Shown in pieces: positions 15,213 through 26,521 of a stretch of DNA of 64,000 nt (within the stretch, counting starts at the first letter, position 1; the number at the start of each line of letters is the position of its first letter). This stretch comes from an uncultured Lachnospiraceae bacterium. GTDB taxonomy: Bacteria > Bacillota_A > Clostridia > Lachnospirales > Lachnospiraceae. Made by a program: the position numbers and the translations under genes. The stretch lies in NCBI GenBank assembly GCA_947564305.1, contig CANOBT010000009.1:5057-69056 (forward strand), read 5' to 3'. The notes under the pieces are model-generated. The model was given only the letters and a program-made list of their open reading frames with translations. It did no database searches and was not told where the DNA came from.

Positions 15213-15984
15213 ATGCAGAAAATAGAACAGACTTTGAGTTCTGTAGAAGTGGCTCAAATGGTAGATAAAGAGCATAGCAAGTTGCTTCGTGATATTCGCA
15301 GATATGAGAAACAATTTGCCGAAGCCAATATTGGATTGGGCGTTTTTTTTTAAACAAAGTGAGTACAAGGATATGAATAATCAAATTCGTCCATGTTACC
15401 GTATTACGAAAAAAGGCTGCGAGTTTATCGCTCACAAGCTGACCGGAACAAAGGGAACTATTTTTACCGCCAGATACATAAATCGTTTTCACGAGATGGA
15501 AGATATTCTGGAAGGGCAGCAGGAGCCTGAATTGCCGTGGTTTATCAGAGATTTCAAGAAAGAGGGTAAAATAATGCTCTTTAGAGATTTCAAAACAATT
15601 ACGGGGATTGAGTTACTTGGAAAGTATACCGCATGGAAAAGGCCAGATAGATTGATTGGTGGCTTAGAGTATAATGGTTGGGGTTGGAAATGTGACAACG
15701 AAAAGTTCAAGGCAGAGTATGGATTCGACTATGGTGAAGATGATTGTATGATGTATCTGTATTTCAGGGGAATTGCGAAAGCGATTCGCGCTGTGGAGAA
15801 TGATTTGCAAGATAGAAAGAAATTATCAGCAGATGCAAAGCAAATGGTTCTGGATGGAGTGCGCGGTATAGAAGGAAAACGCGAGTCGATTATCAGCAAG
15901 CCAAAGGAAATAGAAACAGTAAAACGAAAACCGATTCAGATATGTATCACAATAAACGAAGACGGGATAGTACAACATATTTAG
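15213..15984 (+). pseudogene. Rha-family antirepressor, frameshifted at a T9 tract
   Basis: The gene starts at ATG 15213 after AAAGGAGA and encodes an N-terminal Rha domain (SSVEVAQMVDKEHSKLLRDI), but the frame ends at TAA just after a run of nine T at 15343-15351. With eight T the frame would continue as GVFFKQSEYKDMNNQIRPC through TARYINRFHEME and a C-terminal domain to 15984, the normal length for this family. The 3' part remains intact and conserved-looking. The break may be a real mutation, a phase-variable or slippage-dependent switch, or a sequencing error in a homopolymer. Rha proteins act as phage regulators/antirepressors. Confidence 0.8.
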
Positions 15985-19612: not shown

Positions 19613-19852
19613 ATGAATGAAAATAATATTATGGAAATGAAAACCCCTGTAGATGCAATGTTGGATATGGCAAAAAAAGAAATAGAAGAGCATGTAGTGA
19701 ATTGTATGGAGACAAACAGCATTCCACCGGGACTAATGGCCTATGTGCTGCGAAGCATCCTTCTGAATGTCATGGATGTGAAAGCAGAAAAGATGTCTGA
19801 GGAATTTATATCTTTACAGTCAACTATTGTAAATCAGGGGAGTGTTGAGTAA
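19613..19852 (+). CDS. Small helical phage tail-region protein
   Basis: This 79-residue helical protein has AAGGAGGC upstream of its ATG. Its last base overlaps the first base of the next gene (TAATG), so translation is coupled. The composition (MLDMAKKEIEEHVVNCMETN) suggests a coiled-coil chaperone-like protein. No family is recognised. Confidence 0.65.
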   Translation: MNENNIMEMKTPVDAMLDMAKKEIEEHVVNCMETNSIPPGLMAYVLRSILLNVMDVKAEKMSEEFISLQSTIVNQGSVE

Positions 19853-21747
19853 TGGCGCTTATAATGCGTAGAGGCAAATATGCTGATTTTGACCCATCAA
19901 AGATGCGGGAGGGGGAGTGGGCGGTTGTTCTGGCTGATGACCCAGGGGCAAAAGATGGAAAATCTATTTACATATGCTTTTCTGCGGGAAATGTAAAACG
20001 GATGGCCACATATGAAGATATGGTGGAAAATATTGAAGATGCTTCTGCAGATATACAGAATATGTTTACCGCGGAAATCCAAGAAAAAATACGGCAGGCT
20101 ACAAAGGTAATCAATGAAGGAAATACTGTCATAACCAATTCGACGGCTGCAATTAAAAATGCCGAAGAAGCTGCAAAAAGGGCGAATGATGCGGCTGTTG
20201 AGATTCAAAGAAAAGCGGATAATGGTGATTTTTCAGCAACAATTTCGGGTGTGAGTGCTGTTACAGGGGAATCCGGTACACAGGCAAAGGTTGAGAATAC
20301 TGGAACGGCCAAGGATGTGAATCTGGTATTTACAATCCCCAAAGGTGATTCTGCAGGCTTCGGGAAGCCGACCGCTACGGTAGATGCTAACATTGGTGTT
20401 CCATCTGTTACTGTAAAAGCAAGTGGTTCTGATAGGGAGAAGGTATTCAGCTTTGAGTTCCACAATTTGAAAGGCGAGCCAGGCGCGGAAGGGATGATAG
20501 ATGAAAATTCCATCGTAACGTTTTCGCAGGCAGAAAAGCGAGAAAATATCCAGAGCGGCGAAACTCTTGTTGTCCTTATGGGGAAGATAGAGAAGATGTT
20601 TGCGGATTTGAAGAATATCGCTTATACAGCAAGCTATAAGGATTTGACTGATGCGCCATATGATTTTATAGGGACAAGCCAGGAATTGCAGGCCAAAATA
20701 GATGCAGGAGAAGATTTAAGTGGGATAACTGCTTATCTGACGGATGGTGGACAAGATTCAGATAATGGACAATGGGGTGGATTGGGTGGGGTTCCGTTAG
20801 GGGATGTGAAAAAATTATCTGTTGAAAAAATAAATGGTGGAATAGAGATATCTTGGAGTGACCCAGATGATATTGTTTTTAACGGAGAAACAACAGCAGA
20901 ATTTTCGGGAACAAAGGTTTTAAGAAAAACCGAAAGCTATTCCGTAAGTGAGACAGATGGAATACTTGTTTTGGATAGCAAGATAAAAGATGCGTATAGT
21001 GAAATGCCATTTCAAGATGTGGGATTAGAAAGAGATACAGAGTATTTTTATACTTTATTTCCATACACAACAAAAAATGTTTATACAATGTCTGATACAA
21101 ATAAGGCAAGTTGTAGGACCGCAATTTATGATCCTGTATTAGCAAATAACTCTTGGGATGTGATTGCGTTAGCGTCTGAAGCCGGAATTGCAAAAGATAA
21201 TTGGAAAGTCGGGGACGAAAAAGACGGTTATATGATTATTGGTTTCGACCATGACGATTTAGCGGATGGTAGCGGAAAAGCCGGGATTACGTTTATGTTG
21301 AATGATTATGATATTAATCCGATATATACAAGATGGTGTTCTGATACTAATGCAAATAAGCGCATGTACAATAAGTCAACTTTATCTACAGAGGTGTCAG
21401 GTGCAATACGTGGAATGGATGAAAGCATAACGAGCCATATAAAAACAATTATGAAAAAGAATGTTGTAAATTTCAACAATACTGGGGTGACATATGAAAT
21501 TTATAATTATAAAATTTTTCTTTTTTCATGTTATGAATTGAACAGAGAAGATAATACTGGATTTCGCGAAGGAACTATTTACGAAGGTTGCGATGATTTT
21601 AAAAATATTTCATCTTATTTTTGGACAAGAACACCAACAAGAGATACTTATAATAATGCGTTCATCATATTTAGTAACGGAGGAGCAATAAGCTCTGGAA
21701 CCAGATTAGATAAAAATGCATGGGCAAGATATGGTTTTTGTATCTAA
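19852..21747 (+). CDS. Tail fibre/baseplate protein with DUF6273-like receptor domain
   Basis: This 631-residue protein is probably the main receptor-binding protein. Residues 1-70 form a baseplate-attachment domain, followed by a helical stalk (about 70-125), a BppU-like strand region, a short collagen-like LKGEPGAEG, and SYKDLTDAP typical of fibres. The C-terminal 200 residues (IIGFDHDDLADGSGKAG, YFWTRTPTRDTYNNAF, then a closing ARYGFCI) match the DUF6273 type, related in look to C-type-lectin folds used for ligand binding. The start shares a base with the previous stop. Confidence 0.8.
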   Translation: MALIMRRGKYADFDPSKMREGEWAVVLADDPGAKDGKSIYICFSAGNVKRMATYEDMVENIEDASADIQNMFTAEIQEKIRQATKVINEGNTVITNSTAAIKNAEEAAKRANDAAVEIQRKADNGDFSATISGVSAVTGESGTQAKVENTGTAKDVNLVFTIPKGDSAGFGKPTATVDANIGVPSVTVKASGSDREKVFSFEFHNLKGEPGAEGMIDENSIVTFSQAEKRENIQSGETLVVLMGKIEKMFADLKNIAYTASYKDLTDAPYDFIGTSQELQAKIDAGEDLSGITAYLTDGGQDSDNGQWGGLGGVPLGDVKKLSVEKINGGIEISWSDPDDIVFNGETTAEFSGTKVLRKTESYSVSETDGILVLDSKIKDAYSEMPFQDVGLERDTEYFYTLFPYTTKNVYTMSDTNKASCRTAIYDPVLANNSWDVIALASEAGIAKDNWKVGDEKDGYMIIGFDHDDLADGSGKAGITFMLNDYDINPIYTRWCSDTNANKRMYNKSTLSTEVSGAIRGMDESITSHIKTIMKKNVVNFNNTGVTYEIYNYKIFLFSCYELNREDNTGFREGTIYEGCDDFKNISSYFWTRTPTRDTYNNAFIIFSNGGAISSGTRLDKNAWARYGFCI

Positions 21748-21771: not shown

Positions 21772-21993
21772 ATGGCATCAATTGCAAAAGTGATAGGAAA
21801 TAAAATTATCGAATTCGCCAACGACGGAAGAAAAGGCGCAAACAATAGTGATGGAGAATCCGTATGCGACTATGATGCCGCAATCAATAAGCCGTCTATC
21901 AATGGGGTGACACTGCAAGGGGATAAAACGTTTGGTGAATTAGGACTTGAAAAGGAAAATCTGGATATAGATTTTTCACAATATTTTTCATGA
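21772..21993 (+). CDS. Short tail fibre segment 1
   Basis: A 73-residue protein with AAAGAGGTTGAA before the start. It contains AAINKPSINGVTLQGDKTF, a linker common in phage tail fibres, and ends with ENLDIDFSQYFS. The ending resembles that of the next ORF (ENIDFSSYFA), indicating that these ORFs are pieces of a repeated modular fibre rather than unrelated genes. Confidence 0.7.
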   Translation: MASIAKVIGNKIIEFANDGRKGANNSDGESVCDYDAAINKPSINGVTLQGDKTFGELGLEKENLDIDFSQYFS

Positions 21994-22009
21994 AAAGGAG
22001 AAAAGAAGT

Positions 22010-22501
22010 ATGGATATCACAAAATTTGTAACAAGTACATGGGTAAAAACACAATTTGATAATTTTGCAACAAGGATATCGCTTATTTTTGCCAGGAAGA
22101 CAGAACTTCCAACAAAAGTAAGTGACCTGACGAATGATGAGGGATTCGTTACTAACTCAGTTGATAATCTTACCAACTATTACACAAAAGAACAAGTCAA
22201 CGAATTAACGGCCGGCAGCGGAACGACAGCGCTTGTATTTGATACAAAGGCTGCTCTTGAAGCATGGCTTTCAGATACGAACAATCTCACCAATCTCAAG
22301 GTCGGGCAGAATATTTACATAAAGGATACAGAAACTCCTGATTATTGGTGGGATGGAACGGGGCTTCAGGTTCTGGAAACAGAGAAAGTAAATTTGGATG
22401 GTTATGTTACAACTGAACAGCTTAACACAGCTCTTTCAGATTACCTCAAGAAAACAGACACTGAGACGGAGAATATTGATTTCTCGTCATATTTTGCATA
22501 G
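22010..22501 (+). CDS. Short tail fibre segment 2
   Basis: This 163-residue protein is preceded by AAAAGGAGAAAAG. Its start (ITKFVTSTWVKTQFDNFATR) is paralogous to that of the following gene, and its end (ENIDFSSYFA) to that of the previous one. The centre carries TDTETENID- and TLEQLN-type fibre linkers, with KAALEAWLSDTNNLTNLKVG resembling a phage fibre knob that binds small ligands. It probably co-assembles with its neighbours. Confidence 0.7.
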   Translation: MDITKFVTSTWVKTQFDNFATRISLIFARKTELPTKVSDLTNDEGFVTNSVDNLTNYYTKEQVNELTAGSGTTALVFDTKAALEAWLSDTNNLTNLKVGQNIYIKDTETPDYWWDGTGLQVLETEKVNLDGYVTTEQLNTALSDYLKKTDTETENIDFSSYFA

Positions 22502-22510
22502 GGTGATGAT

Positions 22511-23302
22511 ATGAAATTTGTAACAAAGAGTTGGATGGAAACACAGCTTAAAAATTTTTCATCTAGGATTTCCGCGGTATTTGCAAAGAAAAGTGAAATT
22601 CCCAAACAATATACCCTTCCAAAAGCCTCCGACAATATGCTTGGAGGTGTGAAAACAGGATATATTGCAAATAACAAAAATTATCCTGTGTTGATGGATA
22701 GTGACGGGAGGATGTTTGTGGCTGTGCCATGGACTGACACAAACACCGATACTGATACATGGAAAGCAAACACGAAGGACCAAGAGGGGTATGTTACAAA
22801 AGGAAGTGGACAAGCAAACAAAGTCTGGAAAACAGATGCGAATGGAAATCCTGCATGGCGGGATGATGCGAATACGACTTATGGAGCGGCAAGCCAATCT
22901 GCGACGGGATTAATGTCGGCTGCAGATAAAAAGAAATTGGATGGGTTTAAAGGAATCGCAAACAATGACACAACCACAGAGACAGGATTTGCTTGGGATG
23001 CCACCCGCGGCAAAATGATTGTAGATAAGGTTAATGAACTAAACTCCGCTTTGAAAGAGCTGAAATACATATATCGGGCATATCCCACGATAACAATACC
23101 AGATTCCTGCCATTACTCAATAGCACCATCTCCCGGATATGGCCCCATTTTTTTATTTGCAACTATAAAAACTTTTGCAAGCTGTAATGGCGCATTTAGT
23201 ATCGCGGGGATTGGAGAGGACTATCGTGTTATCGGTGCAAAAGGTACAGTAATAAACGGTTTGCAAGTGTGTTATTGGTATCAGGATCAAATTGCAATTT
23301 AA
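22511..23302 (+). CDS. Phase-variable tail fibre protein, expressed form
   Basis: This 263-residue fibre protein begins with KFVTKSWMETQLKNFSSRIS (paralogous to the previous gene). It carries shaft motifs GYVTKGSGQANKVWKTDANG and ATGLMSAADKKKLDGF, and a constant part ending at LNSAL near residue 180. The last 80 or so residues form the variable tip. The DNA coding for the tip lies between 14-bp inverted repeats at 23039-23052 and 23609-23622, with an alternative tip stored on the - strand. Inversion would swap tips in frame. The tip probably binds the host receptor. Confidence 0.85.
   Translation: MKFVTKSWMETQLKNFSSRISAVFAKKSEIPKQYTLPKASDNMLGGVKTGYIANNKNYPVLMDSDGRMFVAVPWTDTNTDTDTWKANTKDQEGYVTKGSGQANKVWKTDANGNPAWRDDANTTYGAASQSATGLMSAADKKKLDGFKGIANNDTTTETGFAWDATRGKMIVDKVNELNSALKELKYIYRAYPTITIPDSCHYSIAPSPGYGPIFLFATIKTFASCNGAFSIAGIGEDYRVIGAKGTVINGLQVCYWYQDQIAI
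23039..23052 (+). repeat. Left inverted repeat of the fibre cassette
   Basis: CTAAACTCCGCTTT lies within the fibre gene, coding L-N-S-A. It is perfectly complementary to the right copy at 23609-23622 and is the likely crossover site. Confidence 0.8.
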
Positions 23303-23622
23303 TACCATTTTACACCCAATATCCCAGATGCCTTATACCATCCGGCAGGCATAGCAGCATTGCTATAATTGTAAAGACAAACATTACCATCATCTTCTAC
23401 CCCCAAGCTGCACGACCATTGTACGTTTCCGTTTTCACTGTTTATTACAAACAAGCCTGATTGACCAATAATGTTTTCTGGATGTGTGCCCACCACTATT
23501 TTTCCATTAGCTGGTACTGCAGGTACGTAGGAGATATAAAAAAAGCACATTCCTTTTGCTATAAGCCAAAAGATAATACTTCCGTTTTTTGTAAATTTTC
23601 CCGTCTCAAAAGCGGAGTTTAG
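23299..23622 (-). CDS. Silent alternative tail-fibre C-terminus
   Basis: Reading the - strand from the right inverted repeat gives L-N-S-A, then FETGKFTKNGSIIFWLIAKG and about 80 further residues to GWYKASGILGVKWY, with no stop. This has the look of a real fibre tip (Gly/Asn/Trp/Tyr-rich) and joins the upstream fibre frame exactly at the repeat. It has no ribosome binding site or natural start of its own; the internal ATG at 23550 is not convincing. It is therefore a stored cassette expressed only after inversion. Confidence 0.8.
   Translation of the reverse strand, partial: LNSAFETGKFTKNGSIIFWLIAKGMCFFYISYVPAVPANGKIVVGTHPENIIGQSGLFVINSENGNVQWSCSLGVEDDGNVCLYNYSNAAMPAGWYKASGILGVKWY
23609..23622 (-). 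repeat. Right inverted repeat of the fibre cassette
   Basis: AAAGCGGAGTTTAG on the + strand is the exact reverse complement of the left copy. Identity does not extend beyond the 14 bases. Confidence 0.8.
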
Positions 23623-24096: not shown

Positions 24097-24218
24097 TTAG
24101 GTTTTATGTAGAGAAAATCCTGAAAGGCACAATTAATCCAAATACAGGTAAAGCATGGACCGTGGAAGATGTACCTACACTGTGGCGTGCGAAGGTGGCA
24201 AAAGAATTGGAAAAATAA
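24093..24218 (+). CDS. CD1375-like small phage protein
   Basis: A 41-residue protein starting in an ATGA overlap. It contains VEKILKGTINPNTG and WTVEDVPTLWRAKVAKELEK; the pattern of a hydrophobic start, a glycine turn and DVP-x-x-W-R matches the short CD1375/XkdX-type proteins found just before holins. The function is unknown. Confidence 0.65.
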   Translation: MIRFYVEKILKGTINPNTGKAWTVEDVPTLWRAKVAKELEK

Positions 24219-24243
24219 AAAGATAAGAAAGGAACGGAAAGAT

Positions 24244-24669
24244 ATGAAAGAAGGAATTTGTACAAGTGTTGGAATTGTGGGAAGTTTTGTAGTGTCACTT
24301 TTTGGAGGATGGGATGATGGACTAATGACATTGATTATCCTTATGGCTATTGATTATGTATCTGGTCTATTGGTTGCAGGGATTTTCCATAACAGCAATA
24401 AAACTGACACCGGGACGCTTGAGAGTACAGCTGGATGGAAAGGGCTTTTCAGAAAGGTCATGACACTGCTGTTTGTTTTAATTGCTTACCGGCTGGATTT
24501 AGCTTTAGGAGTTAATTATATCCGGGATGCAGTAATTATTGGGTTTATGGTAAACGAACTTATAAGCATTGTGGAAAATGCCGGGCTGATGGGTTTGCCT
24601 CTCCCCAGTATTATTGCTGATGCTATTGATGTGCTGACGAAAAAATCTGAAAGTAAGGGAAATAAATAA
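24244..24669 (+). CDS. Holin (toxin secretion/phage lysis holin family)
   Basis: This 141-residue protein has an N-terminal hydrophobic segment, the conserved MTLIILMAIDYVSGLLVAGI, and further membrane helices (MTLLFVLIAYRLDLALG and the following stretch), ending in a charged tail. This is the Phage_holin_4 pattern, which includes TcdE-type holins. It should form the membrane lesion that releases the amidase. The ATG at 24244 is preferred because of AGGAACGGAAAG just upstream. It lies 24 bases before the endolysin. Confidence 0.9.
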   Translation: MKEGICTSVGIVGSFVVSLFGGWDDGLMTLIILMAIDYVSGLLVAGIFHNSNKTDTGTLESTAGWKGLFRKVMTLLFVLIAYRLDLALGVNYIRDAVIIGFMVNELISIVENAGLMGLPLPSIIADAIDVLTKKSESKGNK

Positions 24670-24693
24670 TGCAGTAGCAGGAAGGAGAATATC

Positions 24694-25458
24694 ATGCCGA
24701 AATTATTTATAATCGCAGGCCATGGCGCAGGAGATCCGGGAGCCTGCGGCAATGGATACACTGAGGCTGAGCGGGTGAGGGCCCTTGCTCAGAGGATTAA
24801 AATACTGGGCGGGGATAATGTTTTACTTGGGGATGTGTCCAGAGATTACTATGCCGACAATGGCATCAGCACGCTTGACATTCCGGCGGATTATCAGATA
24901 ACAGAGTTACATATGGATGCCGGAAGAGAAACGGCTCAAGGTGGCCATGTGCTCATAAAAGATGGATTTGAACCGGATGAATATGATAATGCGCTTGCAG
25001 ATATGTTGGGGGAAATTCTTCCAGGGAGGAGCAGCCTGATTGTAGCCAGAGGAGATTTAGCAAATATGGATAGAGCTGCAGCGCGGGGGTATGGATATCG
25101 GCTCGTAGAATTTGGTTTTATTACCAATGCTGAGGATGTAAAAATTTTTAATTCCCGTATGGGTGATATCGCTCGTGGCGTGCTGGAGGCGTTTGAAATT
25201 ACACCAGTCGGAAATACAACATCAAAAAACAGCAATACAGAAGGAGACAAAGAAGAAATGAAAGAGATTTGGGCAGTAGAAGGAATCGCAACACAGTACC
25301 TTTTTGACGGATGTCATTTACATGGGTTTACATCACAGAAGGAAAAAGATTTGTTTGTAGAAGCGTATGAACGGGTTACAGGAAAGAAAATTGGAACCCA
25401 TCGTTACTCACAAGCTGATTTCAAACAGCTCAGAGCCTTGCTCAATAGAATTGGATAA
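24694..25458 (+). CDS. Endolysin, N-acetylmuramoyl-L-alanine amidase
   Basis: This 254-residue lysin has an N-terminal Amidase_3-type zinc domain (residues 1-165), with IIAGHGAGDPGACGNGYTEA supplying the first histidine and a metal-binding Glu, ITELHMDAGRE a second histidine, and YRLVEFGFITNAED the catalytic Glu. An Asn/Thr/Ser linker follows, then a C-terminal domain (about 185-254) ending in RYSQADFKQLRALLNRIG, probably cell-wall binding. It cleaves the peptide side chain from peptidoglycan at the end of infection. AAGGAG precedes the ATG. Confidence 0.9.
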   Translation: MPKLFIIAGHGAGDPGACGNGYTEAERVRALAQRIKILGGDNVLLGDVSRDYYADNGISTLDIPADYQITELHMDAGRETAQGGHVLIKDGFEPDEYDNALADMLGEILPGRSSLIVARGDLANMDRAAARGYGYRLVEFGFITNAEDVKIFNSRMGDIARGVLEAFEITPVGNTTSKNSNTEGDKEEMKEIWAVEGIATQYLFDGCHLHGFTSQKEKDLFVEAYERVTGKKIGTHRYSQADFKQLRALLNRIG

Positions 25459-25690: not shown

Positions 25691-25945
25691 GTAGAAATGA
25701 GGAAAGCCCGATGTAGGGCATTGACACTTTTAATCTTAAATATTCTTTCTCCTCATTAACTTCAGTAGAAATGAGGAAAGCCCGATGTAGGGCATTGACA
25801 CTGCGATATGTCTTTGCATCCGTTCCGTCCTCTTTTTGTAGAAATGAAGTAGACCCGATTAAGGGTATTGACACCTTCCCTGGTTGTTTTTTTTCCCTGG
25901 TTGTTGTTGTAGAAATGAAGTAAGCCCGATTGAGAGCATAAAAAG
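25691..25945 (+). CRISPR. Mini CRISPR array, 4 repeats and 3 spacers
   Basis: Repeats of 37 bases lie at 25691-25727, 25765-25801, 25838-25874 and 25909-25945; spacers are 37, 36 and 34 bases and unrelated in sequence. Repeats 1 and 2 are identical. Repeat 3 has several changes. Repeat 4 is degenerate at its 3' end, as expected of the distal repeat, so the array reads left to right, in agreement with the promoter. Each repeat begins GTAGAAATGA, has a GCCC/GGGC hairpin and ends ATTGACAC, resembling the 8-base handle of class 1 (type I/III) arrays. No cas genes lie in the window. Confidence 0.82.
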
Positions 25946-25990
25946 AACAGCATCCATACTCTGAAAAGTTGGATGCTGTTTCTGTATAGT
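25946..25990 (+). terminator. Terminator of the CRISPR array (possibly bidirectional)
   Basis: AACAGCATCCA (25946-25956) pairs perfectly with TGGATGCTGTT (25970-25980), immediately after the last repeat, followed by TCTGTATAGTTTTT. On the - strand it runs into CTTTTTATG. Confidence 0.75.
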
Positions 25991-26169: not shown

Positions 26170-26177
26170 GGTTTAAT

Positions 26178-26260
26178 GCGGAAGATGGGACTTGAACCCA
26201 CACAGCTCGAAAGCTACAAGATCCTTAGTCTTGCTCGTCTGCCAGTTCCGACACTTCCGC
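26178..26260 (-). tRNA. tRNA-Leu (anticodon AAG)
   Basis: The 83-base sequence on the - strand folds as a class II tRNA: acceptor stem GCGGAAG/CTTCCGC, D-arm, anticodon stem CAAGA/TCTTG with loop CTAAGGA (anticodon AAG), a long variable arm (AGCT/AGCT) and a T-arm with TTCAAGT. CCA is not encoded. Its 3' end faces the prophage, making it a plausible integration target, although the attachment core cannot be proven without the left end. Confidence 0.92.
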
Positions 26261-26521
26261 ATTTATGGTTTGTAACAACCACAAGACGTATCATACTATT
26301 TCTGACAAAGATTGTCAACTGATTTTTTTAATTTTTTCTTATAAATACTTGATTTTTTTTATTGCTTTCTACGAAAAAGCAATTTTTAAATTATACGCAC
26401 CTAAAAATGAATCAAAATCCTTTTGAATGCATAATACTTCTGAAAAGGTATTTGCATACATTATACGCGGGTAGCACAAAAGAAGATATCCGATAAAATA
26501 AAACTAATGGAGGAATGAATT

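Follow-up and report, generated by a model that had tools for sequence, protein, structure and literature searches.

A probable two-tip inversion cassette at the distal end of a prophage tail-fibre gene from an uncultured Lachnospiraceae bacterium

A prophage tail-fibre gene ends in a short segment that is bounded by an inverted repeat and carries a second open frame on the opposite strand; is this segment a switch between two fibre tips, and what kind of enzyme would turn it? The gene lies in a 64,000-nucleotide stretch of one contig from an uncultured Lachnospiraceae bacterium, hereafter the window. We consider it likely that the segment acts as a switch with two states, turned by site-specific inversion, in the distal part of the tail fibre. 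Strand exchange between the two inverted 14-bp sites by a recombinase would flip the 584-bp segment; the flip would join one fibre base, via an L-N-S hinge, to either tip A or tip B, and the tail-to-tail layout would allow either tip to terminate inside the segment. Tips A and B would presumably bind different receptors, and by inverting its fibre tips a single lysogen could produce phage of two receptor specificities.

The cassette and its prophage setting

The left 25.5 kb of the window are the late part of a prophage, with genes for a capsid-like protein (weak match), a head-tail connector, a tail tube, a 999-aa tail protein, fibres, a holin and an amidase, and with a 1952-aa protein that we take as the tape measure. 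The window starts at the head genes; the terminase, integrase and early genes of the prophage lie outside it, and the prophage ends near a tRNA-Leu (26176-26261), with bacterial genes beyond. Relatives of the prophage come mostly from Lachnospiraceae and other gut bacteria.

Several further features of this region were recorded. Among the head genes, the C-terminus of an ORF at 2212-2970 matches the Tad2-like family (Thoeris anti-defence, PF11195, E 1.7e-21), and a Rha-type phage regulator (PF09669) is encoded within the run of tail genes at 15289-15984. A fibre-like protein of 631 aa (19852-21747) has a DUF6273 C-terminus slightly below the Pfam cut-off, and two short genes just before the fibre (21772-22501) share a similar end motif, NLDIDFSQYFS and NIDFSSYFA. 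Between the amidase gene and the tRNA-Leu at the prophage end are four CRISPR-like repeats of 37-38 nt (25691-25946), two of them identical and the following two at 79% and 74%, with spacers of roughly 33-36 nt; no Cas families were found by Pfam among the 56 window frames scanned.

The left arm of the bounding repeat is CTAAACTCCGCTTT (23039-23052), and the right arm (23609-23622) is its exact reverse complement; the whole window holds no other exact copy of the 14-bp site (Table 1). The preliminary description of the locus had claimed a perfect 14-bp inverted repeat around 584 bp, a fibre frame crossing the left repeat, and a minus-strand frame of about 105 codons running from the right repeat to a stop that overlaps the fibre stop. 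All of this is borne out, by the ORF at 22511-23302 and by the overlap of the tip B stop (23299-23301) with the fibre stop (23300-23302), the exact length of the minus-strand frame being 107 codons.

Table 1. Features of the fibre cassette and of the genes downstream of it (window coordinates)
Feature	Position	Strand	Basis
Tail-fibre gene, present expressed state (constant base and tip A)	22511..23302	+	ORF, 263 aa
Constant base and shaft, 5' of the site	22511..23038	+	Frame continuous across left site
Left crossover site, CTAAACTCCGCTTT	23039..23052	+	Perfect inverted repeat; L-N-S-A-L including next base
Tip A, expressed C-terminus	23053..23302	+	Frame open until stop at 23302
Palindromic stretch around ATCAAATTGCAATTTAAT at the stop-stop junction	23284..23305	.	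Top prophage match to site matrix of relatives
Tip B, silent C-terminus including its site	23299..23622	-	107 open codons, tail-to-tail with tip A
Right crossover site	23609..23622	-	Exact inverted copy; L-N-S-A-F including next base
Holin and amidase genes downstream of the cassette	24169..25458	+	Pfam Phage_holin_4_1, Amidase_3

The fibre shaft is common to many proteins (670 at E<=0.001, of which 120 were listed), and the PHROG matches of the fibre are of unknown function. Loci related to the fibre (n=73) align inside its residues 28-195, and the tip begins at residue 177. Tip A matched, at E<=1e-3 among the 120 listed proteins of 670, the window's own protein only. For tip B, homologues were found neither in phages (tblastn), nor in the protein collection (candidates limited to proteins of about 59-187 aa), nor in viral_contigs, nor in 299 genomes (a search run without a positive control), and there were no DNA relatives of the fibre region among annotated phages. 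Structure models were of low confidence (mean pLDDT 54 and 55), too weak for use.

The stop-stop junction was considered as a third site and set aside: a good palindrome occurs there in the window and in L126 and was not found in the other 11 of the 13 cassettes checked, and the score of the ATCAAATTGCAATTTAAT palindrome is not significant prophage-wide, being reached by 37 of 60 shuffles.

Related cassettes and alternative tips on one base

The 73 loci recruited by the fibre (42 viral, 31 from genomes) include 11 with a compact cassette, an inverted-repeat segment with two tail-to-tail tips at the fibre end (L007, L010, L012, L013, L017, L046, L060, L062, L063, L064, L070); L126, which was recruited later and stands outside the 73, also has one. 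These loci are not all independent, L060 and L062 coming from one MAG and L063 and L064 from one genome, and L012 and L013 have a common base and different tips. In the cassette scan, made over the window and 135 loci, every one of the 19 rows scoring at least 14 lies on a fibre cassette, and rows scoring 11-12 include other things. We left uncounted L023/L061, L014 and L060 4289-4876 (scores 11-12, away from the matched fibre), the inner L013/L124 repeat (score 11) and the duplicate contig copies L120, L121, L124 and L125, and counted L063, which scores only 11, on the ground that its tips match those of L007 at 82-97% identity. A looser test of 24 further fibre-relative loci gave only one weak candidate (L004; 10 bp, stops 49 bp apart), a test limited by loci that end too soon after the fibre to show a cassette (L002, L006, L016, in part L044, L048, L056). 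The cassette is thus a minority trait of the fibre family, since most relatives, including some of the closest, showed none. The fibre cassette of a Treponema MAG (L060, 10210-10666) has an N base inside its left site, as is possible in a mixed assembly.

Related cassettes have left both states in public proteins, as seen in a set of 117 proteins related to a Sporofaciens fibre. For L070, the same base (58/58) is joined in P0179 to the tip that is silent in the DNA copy (100% over 106 aa) and in P0153 to the expressed tip (99% over 114 aa). For L010, the silent tip occurs in P0125 on a 57/58 base (99% over 109 aa) and the expressed tip in P0130 on a 58/58 base (100% over 118 aa), and for L007 the silent tip occurs in P0137 on a 58/58 base (100% over 98 aa), the expressed tip being matched at 93% on a 55/58 base (P0121). 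The join of base and tip in the protein matches of these three loci is at the site. Silent tips were also matched for L063 (93%, on a 54/58 base) and L064 (87%, on a 58/58 base). The tips of the 65 proteins with a base match of at least 46/58 fall into 20 groups when clustered at 30% identity and into 43 when clustered at 90%, and the tip of one relative (P0132) is an H-type lectin domain by Pfam.

Relatives of the window cassette probably invert, because public proteins show the same base continuing, from the site on, into the tip that the DNA copy keeps silent; a base with either of two tips, switching at the site, is what inversion predicts. These proteins carry no genomic context, and whole-module exchange between phages may alternatively explain them. 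The window cassette would presumably invert as its relatives probably do. It was seen in the present orientation only: its left junction was absent from viral_contigs, and the only close protein match to the window fibre, among 120 listed of 670, was its own protein in that state (an entry with 2 contigs).

Recombinases, crossover sites and rival explanations

The preliminary description saw no invertase gene in the window, and we likewise found neither PF00589 nor PF00239 by Pfam in 56 translated frames (7, 10, 10, 10, 10 and 9 in six scans with differing E-value limits, some short frames being left out), nor any relative of the recombinase alignment A1 introduced below. This absence says little, because the window begins at the head genes, without the early half of the phage. 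Relatives' records gave PF00239 in 0 of 8 (several are fragments), no PF00589 in L007, L010 and L017 (fragments of 9-31 kb) and a single PF00589 gene, at the record edge, in L012. Eight of 12 head-gene relatives of the phage were searched for the recombinase family, with one weak partial match. Sporofaciens prophage 2 has a cassette and, by the frames read and the PF00589/PF00239 lists, an integrase only. Recombinases upstream of the terminase in the L013 phage and in Sporofaciens prophage 1 (L082, L137) were considered as the switch enzyme and given little weight because they are distant, long-branched rows of the recombinase tree.

Tyrosine recombinases do lie beside tips in several relatives (L070, L128, L142, L143, L144, L152, L156); that of L070, of 330 aa, starts about 65 bp beyond the cassette. 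A viral scan with A1, an alignment of four rows, yielded 26 loci, in 5 of which (L142, L143, L144, L152, L156) an A1 relative lies beside a fibre cassette; A1 relatives also stand beside a tip array in L128/L147 and adjoin hsdS in L145 and L146. L128 (11048-13223) has three tips, all in direct orientation and preceded by copies of (C/T)TAAAGGGCAAT, followed by a tyrosine recombinase and then by the second arm of a 58-bp inverted repeat; this is an array rather than a two-state switch. The four recombinases tested have PF00589 and SAM-like N-domains, the A1 profile matches XerC-like, XerA and XerD structures, and R186, H276, R279, H302 and Y311, which we take to be the catalytic residues, are invariant in the four A1 rows. 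A match to A1 at E<=1e-40 is present in 64 of 299 Sporofaciens-family genomes.

A1-family recombinases adjoin fibre tips and hsdS genes, with sites of the form TAAAY-N4-RTTTA. At least two such motifs occur at 14 of 30 A1-match loci versus 0 of 30 around other PF00589 genes, and at 11 of those 14 at least two copies share a core; the corresponding counts are 17/30 versus 4/30 for at least one motif, and 8/30 (some with weak scores) versus 1/30 for a tail-to-tail cassette. Two TAAAY-N4-RTTTA motifs with different cores were also seen near an unlinked recombinase (L161, 3076 and 3314). Read in the codon phase of the tips, the motif gives (I/L/V)-N-x-x-L by construction, and fibre tips and hsdS genes use that phase (11 fibre and 10 hsdS loci). 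Genes of hsdS type flank an A1-related recombinase at L145, L146, L206, L209, L210, L215, L216, L218, L221 and L225, where the sites read as INDNL/INNNL-type hinges; the five loci tested (L145, L146, L210, L215, L225) have hsdS by PF01420, and the other client labels were assigned by C-terminal motif or by reading the translation. The recombinase tree was built from 48 of 60 rows, after removal of duplicates, near-duplicates, fragments and rows shorter than 280 aa. All 14 rows labelled hsdS-linked share a branch of 19 rows (100/99), and 12 of 18 labelled fibre-linked group in another (89/92, not starred), long branches leaving the rest unsure; among the fibre loci of the tree a Pfam fibre match confirmed L201 alone, and L205 gave no such match.

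The window tips keep the same hinge register, LNSAL on the left and LNSAF on the right, where the last residue is F. The window site, TAAAC-TCCG-CTTT, departs from the palindromic TAAAY-N4-RTTTA, its right half-site and core being different. On a matrix built from 14 relative loci the two window sites rank 316 and 333 of 52,960 positions, and the window site is the poorest of the 13 cassettes scored. Site cores vary between phages and agree within one cassette. The switch enzyme of the window cassette is most likely a tyrosine recombinase; we infer a XerC/D-like protein, either from a gene in the part of the phage beyond the window or acting in trans from the host or another prophage.

It is hardly credible that the arrangement is a coincidence of a chance 14-bp inverted repeat with an antisense open frame. 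The repeat alone is unremarkable at the scale of the window, which holds 3 seed pairs of perfect 14-mer inverted repeats 100-1500 bp apart (at 2 places), because 40 shuffled windows give a mean of 0.55 and a maximum of 5 by the same count. Against this, shuffling the DNA downstream of the fibre 5000 times never gave the full layout (repeat, matching frame, at least 80 open codons and stops within 20 bp) with a repeat of 11, 12 or 14 bp and gave it once with 10 bp, and the recurrence of the layout at the ends of related fibre genes already contradicts chance. Of the six frames in its half of the segment, the silent one alone is free of stops, and its codon-usage score is the highest (0.15; the other five range from -0.42 to -0.11); the corresponding scores, each in its own frame, are 0.29 for the constant part of the fibre and 0.00 for tip A.

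Two further explanations were weighed. An invertible ancestor whose sites drifted or whose recombinase was lost would leave a cassette that no longer flips, as might be read from the worst site match of the 13 cassettes, from the lack of a recombinase in view and from a tip B found nowhere else in phages, the protein collection, viral_contigs or the 299 genomes; we think this unlikely, in that the two 14-bp copies do not differ, tip B is open throughout and has phage-like codon usage, and cores differ between phages and agree within a cassette. It is quite unlikely that the switch is real and driven by a Gin/Hin-type serine invertase from outside the window. The TAAAC-N4-CTTT of the window presumably resembles a Gin-type site, and in a Sporofaciens genome a serine recombinase (a 218-aa open frame) lies about 17 kb from one of two cassettes, but none is listed within 100 kb of the second, PF00239 was absent from the relatives' records mentioned above, several of them fragments, and homologous tips adjoin tyrosine recombinases. 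We retain the two-state switch, with a tyrosine recombinase as its most likely enzyme, and infer that the window copy still flips.

Wider meaning and comparison with known systems

By this comparison a single recombinase family, with a single hinge-coded site, goes with both the fibre switches of phages and the inverted sites linked to hsdS, and cross-control between phage and host switches therefore becomes testable. As a speculation to which we give little credence at present, one XerC/D-like invertase family might diversify both phage fibre tips and type I restriction specificity subunits through the (I/L/V)-N-x-x-L hinge-coded site; compact cassettes without a recombinase in view might then flip in trans, by the fibre invertase of a resident prophage or the hsdS invertase of the host, linking tip switching to host methylation switching. 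No link between hsdS-linked recombinases and fibre tips was found in the open-access literature, seen mostly as titles and abstract openings, and among the matches listed there for tail-fibre inversion in Lachnospiraceae or Firmicutes, none reports the window cassette by title or abstract opening.

In the Gin, Cin and Min fibre switches of Mu, P1 and p15B the serine invertase gene is adjacent, and the crossover sites are longer than in the window, at about 26 bp for Gin/Cin. The window resembles them in its alternative fibre 3' ends within a segment bounded by inverted repeats, and differs from Gin/Cin in the 14-bp identity between its copies and in having no adjacent PF00239 gene in the window; a repeat shorter than the Mu/P1 invertase sites had been noted in the preliminary description, correctly. 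The same description likened the locus to the host-range switches of Mu and P1. The likeness stands for an invertible two-tip cassette (three homologous cassettes have both tips, or the silent tip, on the same base) and is not supported for kinship with serine-invertase systems, given PF00239 in 0 of 8 records, several of them fragments, and tyrosine recombinases beside homologous tips. The evidence does not support placing the cassette in the Gin/Cin serine family, and host-range switching would be the presumed outcome of the window cassette.

The portion of PMC6109161 consulted, which also mentions the Gin/Cin/Min switches of Mu, P1 and p15B, reports the Rin shufflon as the first phage-encoded tyrosine-family invertase, and Eggerthella lenta prophages also carry Rin (PMC8778435, in excerpt). 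In the parts of both sources available, Rin of Bifidobacterium and E. lenta is like the window in its constant fibre/RBP base, alternative C-terminal tips, short asymmetric repeats and, as predicted here, a tyrosine recombinase, and it has an H-type lectin tip, as does the window's relative P0132; it differs in its multi-tip array, adjoining recombinase and repeats TTCCCTAACCC / ttccgtat (PMC6109161, PMC8778435). Of the Rin features tested on the window, a base with alternative tips at a short repeat is present, at least three tips are absent (there are two), and an adjoining tyrosine recombinase is absent within the window.

Bifidobacterium prophages also have, according to the same portion of PMC6109161, a simpler second invertible locus of about 500 bp without a flanking recombinase. 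That locus, in the tRNA-Met-integrated prophages 689b-1/Bb423phi2, is like the window in its short repeat, dissimilar segments and lack of an adjoining recombinase, and differs in its 8-bp repeat CAGGGTTA, its actinobacterial phages and the observation there of both orientations (PMC6109161, in part). The PsrA hsdS inverton of Streptococcus pneumoniae likewise has a DNA invertase that flips coding segments of a specificity protein; its client, unlike the window fibre, is a methyltransferase specificity subunit (PMC12324116, in part). PMC5903667 mentions, in the section consulted, that prophages of Proteobacteria have tail-fibre inversions and that C. difficile has RecV switches.

In our reading the cassette works like Rin and Gin/Cin; we file it in neither family because its right half-site and core differ and its matrix score is poor. 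Fibre-tip inversion is a known kind of switch, and what the window contributes is a minimal form with two tips, carried by a prophage.
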